Below are positions 37,908-43,350 of a stretch of DNA of 64,000 nucleotides, piece by piece; position 1 is the first letter of the stretch; each line of letters begins with the position of its first letter. Position numbers and translations under genes: made by a program. Source of the stretch: Bifidobacterium tissieri (lineage in GTDB: Bacteria; Actinomycetota; Actinomycetes; Actinomycetales; Bifidobacteriaceae); contig NZ_MWWV01000019.1 of the NCBI RefSeq assembly GCF_002259645.1, forward strand, positions 1 through 64,000, read 5' to 3'. The notes below the pieces were generated by a model. That model ran no database searches and was not told where the DNA came from. It was given only the letters and a program-made list of their open reading frames with translations.

Positions 37908-38019
37908 CCTCCGTACGGCCCATCATCACGCGCTTGACCGCGCCCGATGGTAGATTCATGTACTCGGTTTTACCGTGATGAACGACGACACGAATCGACA
38001 TCGGGACAGGGGATTGCGA

Positions 38020-40707
38020 ATGATGGTATATGACGAACCGGAGGTCATCGCCCGCAGTGCGGAGGAACTGCTGGGAGGCCTCAACGATCAGCAGGCCGAA
38101 GCCGTGCAGTATCACGGGCCGGCCCTGCTGATCGCCGCCGGTGCCGGATCCGGCAAGACTCGGGTACTCACCCGACGCATCGCATGGCTGCTCAGCCAGG
38201 TGGGTGCCTGGCCCAGCCAGATCCTGGCCATCACCTTCACCAACAAGGCCGCCGCCGAAATGAAGGAACGACTCACCACGCTGATCGGCCCGGTGGCCCA
38301 GCGCATGTGGGTCTCCACCTTCCACTCCGCATGCGTGCGCATCCTGCGTCGCGACGGCGAGAAGATCGGCCTCAAATCCGGATTCTCCATCTACGACACC
38401 GCCGACTCGCAACGCCTGATCAAGATCGTCTGCACTGAACTCAACATCGACGTCAAACGGTACACGCCCAGGTCCATCCTCGCCCGCATCTCCGACTACA
38501 AGAACGGACTTGTCGGATGGCAGGAACGACTCAGGGAATACGCCCCGCAATTCAAACCCGGCGTCCGCGGATCCCAGATCGGCAGTTTCGGCGACATCGA
38601 AGTGCTCTATGCCTGCGTGTACGCGGAATACCAGTACCGGCTCGCCGCGGCCAACGCCGTGGACTTCGACGATCTGATCATGCGCACCGTCGAGTTGCTG
38701 CGTGCCGATCCCATGGTCGCCGACTACTACCGACGCAAATTCCGGTACATTCTCGTCGACGAGTACCAGGACACCAACCACGCTCAGTATGTACTCGTGC
38801 GTGAGCTCGGCGGCGTGGATGCCGGGCAATCGCGTGAACCCAATGCGAGTGGCGCCGGCAAGACCGGACCGGCATGGATCACCGTGGTCGGCGACTCCGA
38901 CCAGTCCATCTACGCGTTCCGAGGCGCCGATATCCGCAACATCCAGGAGTTCGAAAAGGACTTCCCGAACGCCAAGACCATCATGCTGGAACAGAACTAC
39001 CGTTCCACACAGACCATCCTCAACGCCGCCAATGCGGTGATCGCGCTGAATCCCGGGCGCAAACCCAAGAAACTGTGGACGGCTCTCGGGGAAGGCAGCA
39101 AGATCATCGGCTACGCGGCCGACAACGCCCAGCAGGAGGGCGCGTGGATCGCCACCGAGATCGCCAGACTGGCCGGTGAGGAAGGATTCCGATACTCCGA
39201 TATCGCGATCATGTATCGCGCCAATGCACAGTCACGCTCCCTCGAAGAGGGGCTCATCAACGCGGGAATCCCCTATCAGATCGTTGGCGGAACCAAGTTC
39301 TACGAACGCAAGGAGGTCAAGGACGCCATGGCCTACCTGCAGACGATCGCCAACCCCGCCGACGACGTGAACCTCCGACGCATCCTCAACGTACCCAAGC
39401 GTGGACTCGGCGCACGCGCCGAAGCCGTGCTCACCATGTACGCCGCCGATCATCAGACCAGCGCATGGGGGGCACTGGAAGCGCTCGACACCATCGAAGG
39501 CGTGCCTACCCGCACCGCCAACCTGCTCACACAGTTCCGCGACCTCATGCGCTCGCTGCGGGAGTTCGCCGCGGCCAACGACTCCAAGCCGAGCGAGATC
39601 GTGGCCGAGGTGCTCGACAAGTCGGGTCTGCTGGCCGAACTGCGCAAGTCCACCGACCCGCAGGACATGACACGCGTGGACAATCTTTCGCAGCTGCAAT
39701 CCGTGGCCGCCGAGTACGAACAGAACACGCCCGACGCCACGCTCAACGGATTTCTGGAGACCACGGCGCTGGTGGCCGACAGCGACCAGCTGCCCGGCGA
39801 GGGCGAGGACAGCGGCACCGTCACGCTCATGACCCTGCATACCGCCAAGGGACTGGAATATCCCGTGGTGTTCCTTACCGGCATGGAACAGGGGACCTTC
39901 CCGCATTCCCGCGCCATGGAGGATGAAAGCGAGCTGGAGGAGGAACGGCGACTCGCCTACGTTGGCATCACCCGCGCCCGTCAGATCCTGTATGTCACCC
40001 GCGCCGCGGTGCGAGCGCAATGGGGCCAGGCGGCGGAGATGCTGCCCAGTCAGTTCCTCGACGATATTCCCGAGGACCTGATCGAATGGAAGCGCAGGGA
40101 GACCTCATCCGAACGCATGCGCGGCGGCTGGGGGAGCGGTTTCGACGACGATGACGAGTTCGGCGGTTTCGAATCCGGCTCGTCCGATTCCGGGTACGGA
40201 TCGTTCGGTTCATCGCGTCGGTGGGGATCCGCGTCTGGGCGTTCCTCCGGCGGTTCGTATGGTTCCGGTTCCTACGGTTCGGGCTATGGTTCCGGATCGT
40301 CGAGTTCGTCGTCCCGTTTCGGATCACGGTATGGTTCCGGATCGTCACGCTCCTATGGCGGGGCCTCCGGTGGCTCGTCCTATGGGTCTCGTTCCGGCTC
40401 CTCGTCGTCCCGTTCAGGCGCGTCCCGTTCGGGCAAGGTGACCACGAGGCGAATGCAGCGCGATCTGTTCGGCTCGCTGTCGAAGGCCAAGGCCGCCGCC
40501 GAACGCAAGACGTCCGGGAGCGATCATGATTCCGTCCCCAACGTCGCTGATTTCCATGCGGGGGACAAGGTCACCCACGACCAGTACGGTCTGGGAACCG
40601 TGGTCGCCGTGGAGGACAAGGGCCGTAATTCCGTGGTGACCGTGGACTTCGGCTCCGACGGCGTCAAGCGGCTGCTGCTGCGGGTGGCACCCATCGAAAA
40701 ACTGTAG
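38020..40707 (+). CDS. pcrA: UvrD/PcrA-type ATP-dependent DNA helicase with Gly/Ser/Tyr-rich tail
   Basis: 895 residues. Superfamily 1 motifs: AGAGSGKT (40-47), LAITFTNKAAAEM, VDEYQDTN (motif II), GDSDQSIYAFRGAD, TLHTAKGLEYPVVF and AYVGITRAR. It unwinds DNA 3'-5' in repair and replication. Residues 703-806 form a low-complexity S/G/Y/R segment, and about 840-895 is the PcrA Tudor-like domain (VTHDQYGLGTVV). The start could also be GTG/ATG near 37978 (MMNDD); AGGGGATT before the 38020 ATG favours this one. Pairing with putP is not functional. Confidence 0.93.
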   Translation: MMVYDEPEVIARSAEELLGGLNDQQAEAVQYHGPALLIAAGAGSGKTRVLTRRIAWLLSQVGAWPSQILAITFTNKAAAEMKERLTTLIGPVAQRMWVSTFHSACVRILRRDGEKIGLKSGFSIYDTADSQRLIKIVCTELNIDVKRYTPRSILARISDYKNGLVGWQERLREYAPQFKPGVRGSQIGSFGDIEVLYACVYAEYQYRLAAANAVDFDDLIMRTVELLRADPMVADYYRRKFRYILVDEYQDTNHAQYVLVRELGGVDAGQSREPNASGAGKTGPAWITVVGDSDQSIYAFRGADIRNIQEFEKDFPNAKTIMLEQNYRSTQTILNAANAVIALNPGRKPKKLWTALGEGSKIIGYAADNAQQEGAWIATEIARLAGEEGFRYSDIAIMYRANAQSRSLEEGLINAGIPYQIVGGTKFYERKEVKDAMAYLQTIANPADDVNLRRILNVPKRGLGARAEAVLTMYAADHQTSAWGALEALDTIEGVPTRTANLLTQFRDLMRSLREFAAANDSKPSEIVAEVLDKSGLLAELRKSTDPQDMTRVDNLSQLQSVAAEYEQNTPDATLNGFLETTALVADSDQLPGEGEDSGTVTLMTLHTAKGLEYPVVFLTGMEQGTFPHSRAMEDESELEEERRLAYVGITRARQILYVTRAAVRAQWGQAAEMLPSQFLDDIPEDLIEWKRRETSSERMRGGWGSGFDDDDEFGGFESGSSDSGYGSFGSSRRWGSASGRSSGGSYGSGSYGSGYGSGSSSSSSRFGSRYGSGSSRSYGGASGGSSYGSRSGSSSSRSGASRSGKVTTRRMQRDLFGSLSKAKAAAERKTSGSDHDSVPNVADFHAGDKVTHDQYGLGTVVAVEDKGRNSVVTVDFGSDGVKRLLLRVAPIEKL

Positions 40708-40723: not shown

Positions 40724-40768
40724 CATCCTTTTCGGGAAAGTCAAGACTTGATTTTCCCGGACAGGATG
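40724..40768. promoter_or_regulatory. Long imperfect dyad after pcrA
   Basis: CATCCT-ttt-CGGGAAA-gt-CAAG mirrors CTTG-att-TTCCCG-gac-AGGATG over 45 nt. It may act as the pcrA terminator or as an operator for the ABC cassette downstream. Confidence 0.5.
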
Positions 40769-40861: not shown

Positions 40862-41260
40862 GTGAAGAACAAGCTGTTCGCGTCCATTCCATCCATCGTT
40901 TTCGGCGTGCTCATCGCCGTCGCTCCGCAGACGTTCGCCTATGTCTGCAAAGTGGGGGAGATGCCCATGGCGTGCCATTGGACGGCACAGGCTGAGATCG
41001 GTGTCGGTTCGCTCATCGCTTTGCTGGGTGTCGTCGCCCTGTTCGTCTCCCCGCAGATCCGCATTGGCCTGAACATCGGTGTGGTGCTGGGCGCGGTGCT
41101 CGCCATCGCCATCCCCACGGTGCTCATCGGCGTGTGCCCCGGAGCCATGATGCATTGCCACATGGTTGCCAGGCCAACGCTGATCGTGCTCGGCGTGCTG
41201 TCCATCGTTTTCGCCGCCATCGGCATGTGGCTGGACTCACGTCTGGCCAAGCGCTCCTGA
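40862..41260 (+). CDS. DUF4418 membrane protein
   Basis: 132 residues, starting GTG with GGAGAAG upstream. Four hydrophobic helices. Two Cys/His clusters, MACHWTAQAEIG near residue 40 and GVCPGAMMHCHM near 95, are characteristic of DUF4418 and could bind metal or form disulfides. The function is unknown. It is followed within 40 bp by an FtsX-like permease and then an ATPase, so it is the likely accessory or ligand-handling subunit of that transporter. Confidence 0.82.
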   Translation: MKNKLFASIPSIVFGVLIAVAPQTFAYVCKVGEMPMACHWTAQAEIGVGSLIALLGVVALFVSPQIRIGLNIGVVLGAVLAIAIPTVLIGVCPGAMMHCHMVARPTLIVLGVLSIVFAAIGMWLDSRLAKRS

Positions 41261-41297
41261 TCGAAGCGTCTGACACGTCGGAAGCGCATCGGGAATC

Positions 41298-42515
41298 ATG
41301 TCAGTACGCATCTCACTCGCTCGCCTGCCATTGGAGAATCTCCGGCGCAGGCCCTTCCGCACCGCATCGCTGATCACGGTGGTGGCTATCCTCTCCGTCG
41401 CGTTCTTCGGAGGATCCATGCTGGCCATGAACCTCAATAAGGGGTTGACGAGCATGGAGGAACGTCTCGGAGCCGATCTTATGGTCGTGCCCCAGGCCAC
41501 CGAATCCAAGGCTGAGGCCCTGCTGACCGACGGCACGCCGAACACCTTCTATTTCACCAACGATATCGAATCGAAGGTCGCCAAGGCCGATGGGATCGCG
41601 CAGATCACCTCACAGACCTATATCTCGTCGCTCGCTGCGGCATGCTGCGTCGAAAAGCTGCAGATCATCGGCTTCGATCCGAAGACCGACTTCGTGATCG
41701 AGCCGTGGGTCGCGTCCCAATACGACGGAACGCTGGCCGACGGCGAGATGGTGGCCGGTGCCAATGTGAACGTATCCACTGATGGCACCATCGAACTGTA
41801 TGGCCGCTCCTGGCCTGTTGTCGCGCAGTTGGCCAGCACTGGTACCAGTCTCGACAACTCCGTGTTCGTCAATAAGGCCACAGTGCCGCAGATGGTCGCC
41901 GCCTCGGCGAAGGTCGCCAGGCAGGTCATGCCGCAGGAATATGCGTCCAAGGCCGTCTCGTCCGTGCTGATCAAGGTCCAGGACGGCTATGACGCGCATA
42001 CGGTGGCGAATAACATCGCTCGCATCGATCCGCAGCTGTCGTCGGTCGGATTCGTGTATCCGGGAGGCGTCACAGCGTCCACCAAAACATCATTGAACAC
42101 CATGTTGTCTTATATGCTGGTGTTCGTCGCCGTGCTGTGGGTGATGGGGCTGATCGTCATGCTCGCCGTGTTCGCATCCTCGGTCAACGAGCGCAAGAAG
42201 GAGTTCGCGTCCCTGCGTATCATGGGTGCCACTCGCGGCATGCTCACTTCCATTGTCATCCGCGAATCGCTGGTCACCGGTCTTGCCGGAGGTCTTATTG
42301 GCGTGGCGATCGCATCGTTGATCGTCTTTCCCTTCAGTGGATACATCGGCAAGCAGATGCAGCTCCCATACCTGCAGATAGGCATCGGTATGAGTCTATG
42401 TCTGGCGCTGGTGGCCTTGACGTTCGCCGTGATCACCGCGGTTCTGGCATCGCTGTTCGTCGTCATCCGCATCGGTCGCCCGGAGGCGTATCTGACGCTG
42501 AGGGAAGGAGAATGA
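41298..42515 (+). CDS. FtsX/MacB-type ABC permease
   Basis: 405 residues with the MacB plan: one helix near 20-45, a large external domain (50-265), then three helices near 270-395, with the typical loop NERKKEFASLRIMGATRG after helix 2. The external domain carries an uncommon vicinal Cys pair (116-117) in SLAAACCVEKLQ, then a segment GFDPKTDFVIEPWV. It is coupled by a 1-nt gap to the ATPase gene. Such transporters often move lipoproteins, peptides or, in some groups, act beside metal-uptake systems. Confidence 0.87.
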   Translation: MSVRISLARLPLENLRRRPFRTASLITVVAILSVAFFGGSMLAMNLNKGLTSMEERLGADLMVVPQATESKAEALLTDGTPNTFYFTNDIESKVAKADGIAQITSQTYISSLAAACCVEKLQIIGFDPKTDFVIEPWVASQYDGTLADGEMVAGANVNVSTDGTIELYGRSWPVVAQLASTGTSLDNSVFVNKATVPQMVAASAKVARQVMPQEYASKAVSSVLIKVQDGYDAHTVANNIARIDPQLSSVGFVYPGGVTASTKTSLNTMLSYMLVFVAVLWVMGLIVMLAVFASSVNERKKEFASLRIMGATRGMLTSIVIRESLVTGLAGGLIGVAIASLIVFPFSGYIGKQMQLPYLQIGIGMSLCLALVALTFAVITAVLASLFVVIRIGRPEAYLTLREGE

Positions 42516-42516
42516 C

Positions 42517-43350
42517 ATGCTGCTGGAGATCAAGGACCTCACCCGGGAATTCGTGCGCAGGGGAGTGCCATTCGCCGCAGTCGATCATGTGAATCTGTCC
42601 ATGGATGACGGCGAATTCATCGCGATAGTCGGCCGTTCGGGCAATGGCAAGAGCACGTTGCTCAATATGGTGTCCGGGTTGCTCCGCCCCACCTCGGGCA
42701 CTGTGACGGTCGAGGGGAAAACAGTCGCCGAACTCGATGACAGAGCGTTGTCACGTCTGCGCAATCGCACCATCGGCTTCGTCACGCAGAGCCAGACGCT
42801 ATTGCCTAATCTGACCGTGATCGACAATGTGATCCTGCCGGCTGTGCTCTTCCCGGATGATCCCGTCACCCATGATCAGGATCACGCCGCCGAAGAGGCA
42901 ACCGCGCCGGACGTGCCGAAGCAGACCATTTCGGGGCAGGACCCCTCCGCCGACCAGAGTGATCCGGACATGCCCGACGTCATCGCCCCGGCCACGTCCC
43001 CATCACCGAGCGACGAGCAAACCGATGCGTTGACCATGCGAGCCCATGCACTGCTGGCCGATCTGCAAGTCGATGATCTTGCCCATAGCTATCCCCGTGA
43101 ACTGTCCGGCGGCGAGATGCGTCGCGTTTCCATCGCGCGTGCGCTGATGAACCAGCCCAAGCTGCTGATCGCCGACGAGCCGACGGGAGATCTGGACGCG
43201 GAAAGCACCCTTATCGTCATGCGTTTGCTGCGATCCCTGGTCGATCGGGGGACATCGGTGCTCATGGTCACCCATGACGCCGATGCGCTTCCCTACGCGG
43301 ATAGGATACTGACATTGGATGCCGGGCGACTCGCCGAAAAGACGGCATGA
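42517..43350 (+). CDS. ABC ATPase of the LolD/MacB group with acidic insertion
   Basis: 277 residues. Walker A is GRSGNGKST (39-47), the Q-loop is TQSQTLLP (about 90), the signature is LSGGEMRR (196-203), Walker B is LLIADEPTGDLDAE and the H-loop is TH near 251. Between the Q-loop and signature, roughly residues 113-170 are an acidic Pro/Ser/Asp-rich insertion absent from ordinary LolD ATPases, in the helical subdomain that contacts the permease. It pairs with the FtsX-type permease directly upstream. Confidence 0.88.
   Translation: MLLEIKDLTREFVRRGVPFAAVDHVNLSMDDGEFIAIVGRSGNGKSTLLNMVSGLLRPTSGTVTVEGKTVAELDDRALSRLRNRTIGFVTQSQTLLPNLTVIDNVILPAVLFPDDPVTHDQDHAAEEATAPDVPKQTISGQDPSADQSDPDMPDVIAPATSPSPSDEQTDALTMRAHALLADLQVDDLAHSYPRELSGGEMRRVSIARALMNQPKLLIADEPTGDLDAESTLIVMRLLRSLVDRGTSVLMVTHDADALPYADRILTLDAGRLAEKTA

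Follow-up and report, generated by a model that had tools for sequence, protein, structure and literature searches.

The window analysed here, a stretch of 64,000 nucleotides (64 kb) from Bifidobacterium tissieri, carries a cassette of three genes encoding a DUF4418 protein, an FtsX permease and an ATPase. They form a single operon on the + strand, with gaps of 37 nt and then 1 nt between them, and are preceded by a palindromic site. The features are as follows.

40735..40758, + strand: near-perfect palindrome GGAAAGTCAAGACTTGATTTTCCC, with the core AGTCAAG-A-CTTGATT; probable operator for the iron-responsive regulator of bfeUO
40862..41260, + strand: DUF4418 protein, 132 aa, GTG start at 40862 (Pfam E=1.4e-32)
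41298..42515, + strand: FtsX/MacB-type permease, 405 aa (Pfam FtsX C-terminal domain, E=9.7e-13)
42517..43350, + strand: ABC ATPase of the LolD/MacB/FtsE type, 277 aa (Pfam ABC_tran, E=7.4e-35)

A first-pass annotation of this DNA had described three close genes in one direction, two Cys/His clusters in the DUF4418 protein (MACHW and CPGAMMHCH) and a CC pair in the permease. The coordinates, strand and spacing of the reading frames, and their translations, bear this description out. The cassette is flanked in the window by pcrA on one side and rpsD on the other, and in 32 named Bifidobacteriaceae records pcrA is mostly upstream and rpsD mostly downstream. The PcrA/UvrD helicase (window 37975-40707) has a long Gly/Ser-rich stretch ahead of its C-terminal tudor domain.

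The cassette proteins and their cysteines

The first protein matches the DUF4418 model (PF14387) over positions 2-116 of 117, with 112.9 bits against a cut-off of 27. Homologues from Fusobacterium, Acetoanaerobium and a deep Actinomycetota genome (G252) match the full-length model above the cut-off, and the Treponema homologue exceeds it via the second half of the model only; in Treponema saccharophilum, the protein comprises 67 residues that form a single hairpin corresponding to that second half. The AlphaFold model (pLDDT 78.5) contains four transmembrane (TM) helices arranged as two hairpins, and comparison of the first and second halves of the family with hhalign gives a probability of 97%, the E-value referring to a database of one. 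Judging by sequence, DUF4418 is a tandem-duplicated TM hairpin, each unit of which carries a C-x(n)-M-x-C motif. Every one of 72 aligned sequences has C92, M97 and C99, and every one but that of T. saccharophilum has C29 and C38. V28, C29, M36, C38, P85, C92, M97 and C99 are invariant in a set of 13 diverse members. Because the two ends of the protein and its middle loop carry Lys and Arg residues, both cysteine loops are predicted to face the outside.

No match of DUF4418 to the PDB was found by sequence, and no distant relatives were found in viral contigs; the DUF4418 alignment is too divergent for scanning. A copper-storage or VKOR fold was considered and rejected: no Foldseek match is significant (best E 0.07), and the VIA-align Z values of 11-14 are at the ordinary level for helical bundles. 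A possible DUF4418 relic in another genome (G422) was likewise set aside, since the 20-bit match is below the cut-off and reads as chance. In a study of Bifidobacterium longum treated with inflammatory factors, the DUF4418 gene and the ABC permease with the next locus tag were both downregulated about two-fold (PMC7701253).

The permease consists of TM1, an extracytoplasmic domain at about residues 58-258 and three further TM helices. This topology, the PF02687 match (48.7 bits) and the LolD-type ATPase encoded 1 nt downstream place it among type VII (FtsX/MacB-type) ABC systems. It falls outside LolCDE, MacB and FtsEX, missing every NCBIfam cut-off tested: the best score is to ADOP (28.6 bits), followed by LolE (26 vs 540), MacB (23 vs 966) and FtsX (23 vs 225). 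The ATPase, whose best NCBIfam match is LolD, is also under the cut-off. A low-complexity insert of roughly 50 residues between the Q loop and the signature (window 42860-43020) makes the protein longer than its homologues; the insert differs in length among bifidobacteria and is absent in Fusobacterium.

The outer domain of the permease contains an invariant C116-C117 pair (SLAAACCVEK) and an invariant W137. The pair is found in all 70 aligned sequences and is missing from every sif-type permease examined, and on the evidence of these alignments it is specific to the cassette. A Methylocella homologue that scores above the sif-type permeases has neither the CC pair nor a DUF4418 gene annotated nearby.

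It may be that the permease and ATPase are an ordinary BceAB- or LolCDE/MacB-like pair that removes or extrudes a lipid, a peptide or haem, with the cysteines forming structural disulfides only. The permease model does fold like LolE, HrtB and MacB (Foldseek matches) and like BceB, and paired extracellular cysteines may be structural. However, the cysteines are invariant in all lineages, the CC pair is limited to the cassette, a vicinal pair would be an unusual structural disulfide, and a TGA codon replaces one of the two cysteines in a genome that decodes selenocysteine (see below); the cut-offs missed for LolCE, MacB and FtsX also argue against it. An ordinary pair is quite improbable, and it is likely that the cysteines have a functional role.

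Linkage to iron uptake and a shared operator

DUF4418, scored by its curated cut-off, is present in 57 of 299 relatives, and the cassette permease (E<=1e-20) adjoins it in the identical 57. The first-pass annotation had staked its interpretation on the two genes co-occurring elsewhere and on conservation of the cysteines, and both expectations hold, with the cassette cysteines invariant across four phyla. The three-gene grouping is not a matter of chance, given the 57/57 co-occurrence and the invariant cysteines of distant homologues. An even sample of 296 Actinomycetota contains 8 genomes with DUF4418 and 9 in which the permease profile exceeds 186 bits, namely those 8 and one further genome (G068); scores then fall to 142 bits, and from there on the matches are sif-type permeases. 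Outside bifidobacteria, the cassette genes can be split: they lie 20 kb apart on the same contig in G056 and on different contigs in G124.

Which genes accompany the cassette depends on the lineage. The first-pass annotation had asked for a fourth gene, naming iron or haem genes as examples; some lineages have the sif/fet iron set in this position, and others have sulfur-relay or cysteine genes. Fusobacterium vincentii has the order sifA-sifB-sifC-sifD-sifE-DUF4418-FtsX-ATPase on one strand, and in G252 the order is sifB-sifC-DUF4418-FtsX-ATPase-sifD-sifA. SifA/PF10080 is present in all 57 cassette-bearing relatives (a count that ignores kinship) and, in the phylum sample, in 6 of the 8 DUF4418 genomes compared with 22 of 296 overall (kinship again ignored). 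By operon clustering and co-occurrence, the cassette thus belongs to the broad Fet/Sif iron-uptake gene set, although in bifidobacteria it is a separate locus. The genome of the window has its own sif locus beside an FTR1 permease, orthologous to bfeUO-sifABCDE of Bifidobacterium breve. In that species, the sif genes are needed under ferrous-iron limitation, where bfeUO-sifABCDE mutants fail (PMC5449479).

The palindrome provides a second connection to this operon. In the window, AAGTCAAG-A-CTTGATTTT and the likely -35 box (TTGATT) overlap, and CACAAT is a possible -10 box. The palindrome is kept upstream of DUF4418 in most bifidobacterial species other than Gardnerella, where the cassette lacks it, and its flanks vary. 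In the genome of the window, bfeU too is preceded by a similar site, at a distance of 96 bp. The bfeUO motif was reportedly first described by Cronin in 2012. Lanigan et al. report a repressor site with the sequence AAAATCAAGACTGTTGTT upstream of bfeUO (PMC5449479). The 7-1-7 dyad of the operator might point to a regulator of the Fur family, though this is a guess.

Matrices built from either set of sites find the other. For one Bifidobacterium genome (G354), a matrix was made from the bfeU sites of other genomes only; across 1.6 Mb (70%) of G354, it scores the bfeU site at 29.1 bits, the cassette site at 26.2 and the third match at 18.3. That third match (L244 17274) lies 170 bp upstream of a gene encoding a 270-aa lipoprotein-like protein, and could be an additional regulon member or a chance occurrence. 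When 23 loci of 12.4 kb are scored with the bfeU matrix, the cassette promoter comes out on top in 21 of them, and in the 64-kb window the cassette operator is the best match, narrowly and at a modest score (13.2 vs 12.5 bits). Conversely, when the 10-kb sif/bfe region is scored with a matrix of cassette sites, the bfeU promoter is the best match in 18 of 19 non-Gardnerella genomes, in two of which the called ORF start is upstream of the site. The bfeU-promoter site is missing in two Gardnerella-type genomes, and for sifA itself no upstream site was found. In G354, a gene for a Fur-family regulator begins at a weak match to the cassette matrix (L243 15315, 13.0 bits).

The promoter site thus groups the cassette with the genes under the bfeUO operator, and it is very likely that in bifidobacteria the cassette is part of the iron regulon. 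Iron limitation induces bfeU, and so the cassette would most likely respond in the same way. Against this, a B. breve microarray under iron limitation lists 14 induced genes, none of them recognisable as the cassette, and the cassette is not recognisably among the transposon insertions that conferred iron sensitivity (PMC5449479).

Sulfur and copper neighbourhoods and a probable selenocysteine

In Treponema and in one Actinomycetota family, the neighbours of the cassette genes belong to sulfur metabolism. The Treponema cassette is located near a cysteine synthase, an Rrf2 regulator and PLP lyases. In G056 and G068, the FtsX-ATPase genes are divergent from TusBCD/DsrEFH-like genes, which are followed by YeeE/YedE and TusA. 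An Rrf2 gene overlaps DUF4418 in G056, and another is beside the FtsX-ATPase pair in G124, where DUF4418, on its other contig, has a NapH-like polyferredoxin and DsrE-like genes next to it. These contexts could indicate sulfur or thiol traffic, in which a sulfur compound such as cysteine or a persulfide would be moved by the complex through the membrane or out of it; its link to iron would then be sulfur for Fe-S clusters or a thiol reductant. However, no sulfur genes adjoin the cassette in Bifidobacterium, Fusobacterium or G252, and no substrate pocket was identified, and we regard sulfur transport as unlikely. A thiol-redox function would fit both the iron and the sulfur contexts, and a dedicated iron transporter would not.

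The features by which a selenoprotein is recognised occur together in G068. The CC pair of its permease (L152 7310-8515) is encoded by TGA-TGC, with TGA at the first Cys. Beyond the TGA, the frame shares 60% identity with the G124 protein, and where codons differ, half of the changes are synonymous; with the frame conserved in this way, the gene is not an old pseudogene. The genome has a tRNA-Sec (anticodon tca) beside selB, and a hairpin with a stem of 7 bp and a GGGCG loop lies 18 nt from the TGA, within the published bSECIS limits (PMC13188914). Such a hairpin occurs by chance at 38 of 372 codons of this gene (about 10%), and none of three Cys orthologues has one at the corresponding place. 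DUF4418 was found neither on the permease contig of G068 nor in a search of the genome. The permease is a candidate new selenoprotein in a single draft genome, in which Sec probably replaces the first Cys of the pair; the accessible text of a recent selenoproteome review names no FtsX permease. One draft genome is a slender basis, but the place of the TGA within the pair is suggestive.

In one Actinomycetota family, four loci (L114, L116, L153 and L154) combine a short DUF2318/PF10080 protein and an ATPase with two FtsX permeases. Each has a CsoR-type regulator next to the set, and all but L114 also have a heavy-metal P-type ATPase there. This set is a copper-linked relative of the sif/fet ABC system.

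Copper offers a further explanation for the cassette. The C-x(n)-M-x-C motif of DUF4418 is a plausible Cu(I) ligand set. The Cys/Met sets might thus bind Cu(I) for the ABC pair to move or release, for example to load a P19/EfeO-type copper-using periplasmic partner of FTR1 or to keep copper off iron sites. When iron is scarce, B. breve induces csoR and a cation P-type ATPase (PMC5449479), the copper-linked DUF2318 loci point the same way, and selenocysteine can also be a metal ligand (PMC13188914). None of the loci read, however, has the cassette itself next to copper genes, and the weak fold similarity of DUF4418 to copper storage proteins is that of a generic helical bundle. Copper handling by the cassette is given a low probability. 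For the cysteines themselves, redox chemistry is somewhat favoured over metal binding, a preference backed by the one probable Sec substitution.

The earlier proposal of a redox- or metal-sensing ABC module, linked to metal or cysteine, is thus partly supported and narrowed to iron. Its metal and cysteine links gain from the extracytoplasmic cysteines, the operator shared with bfeUO, the sif/fet operon fusions and the probable Sec at the CC pair; nothing was found in favour of sensing.

Proposed mechanism and comparison with known systems

FtsX/MacB-type ABC proteins such as LolCDE, MacB and FtsEX act on the outer face of the membrane, often by mechanical work instead of transport. The cassette may encode one membrane complex of this kind, with the permease, the ATPase and the four-helix DUF4418 protein as a third subunit; with only a single permease gene, the permease would be a homodimer. 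The complex would be switched on together with the FTR1 iron-uptake operon bfeUO and would serve Sif/Fet-type iron acquisition. The ATPase would drive conformational changes of the permease outer domain, whose CC pair could exchange with the two C...M-x-C centres of DUF4418. Electrons or thiols would be delivered outside the membrane, and Fe(III) would be reduced or released before uptake by FTR1. We infer the stoichiometry, the reducing direction and a cargo of electrons or thiols and not metal. As a whole, the proposal of a MacB/LolCDE-type module performing extracytoplasmic thiol (or soft-metal) chemistry for Sif/Fet iron acquisition is tentative, with a little under an even chance of being correct.

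A wider reading is more doubtful still. The FtsX-type ABC machine, a redox-active CC (or Sec-Cys) pair and the duplicated-hairpin membrane partner might together constitute a previously undescribed, ATP-driven extracytoplasmic thiol/selenol relay, which would power reductive iron acquisition here and sulfur chemistry elsewhere. If the CC pair is redox-active, the cassette would be an ABC machine with electrons or thiols as its cargo. The findings connect DUF4418, a domain of unknown function, with the way gut commensals deal with iron, and single out the residues concerned.

The closest comparison is to the FetABCD/SifABCD systems of Campylobacter jejuni (fetMP-fetABCDEF) and B. breve (bfeUO-sifABCDE). 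These share with the cassette an FtsX permease, a LolD-type ATPase, a cysteine-bearing membrane partner and linkage to the same iron operon, the bifidobacterial cassette probably being in the bfeUO regulon. The cassette is nevertheless distinct from the Fet/Sif ABC system proper, which has two unlike FtsX permeases and a DUF2318/FtrD-like protein where the cassette has one permease and DUF4418; SifB/SifC-type permeases lack the CC pair, and the bifidobacterial cassette has its own promoter. For C. jejuni, a relay of reducing power by FetBCD and FetA has been put forward, and the mechanism suggested here is close to that proposal (PMC10783030). The role of the FtsX-type ABC transporter in Fet/Sif iron systems is an open question according to its discoverers (PMC6083913, PMC10783030). 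The cassette poses the same problem in compact form, with one permease, one ATPase, a small partner, six conserved cysteines and a shared operator.

The HrtBA haem exporter and MacB/LolCDE resemble the cassette in the four TM helices and large outer domain of the permease, and HrtB, like the cassette, has a single permease gene. The cassette differs from them in its scores, below every curated cut-off tested, in its CC pair and in its obligatory DUF4418 partner; no outer-membrane or lipoprotein partner was seen. DsbB and VKOR, like DUF4418, have four TM helices and two outward cysteine pairs, but DUF4418 has no conserved CxxC, its invariant pairs being the C-x(n)-M-x-C of a duplicated hairpin, and its matches to the VKOR fold are weak. 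The selenoprotein-rich Sao transporter (SaoP, SaoB and SaoX) is, like the G068 permease, part of an ABC system in which Sec takes the position of a Cys. The Sao proteins are listed under other family models (PMC13188914), whereas the cassette-type Sec is at the CC pair of an FtsX permease and in one genome only.
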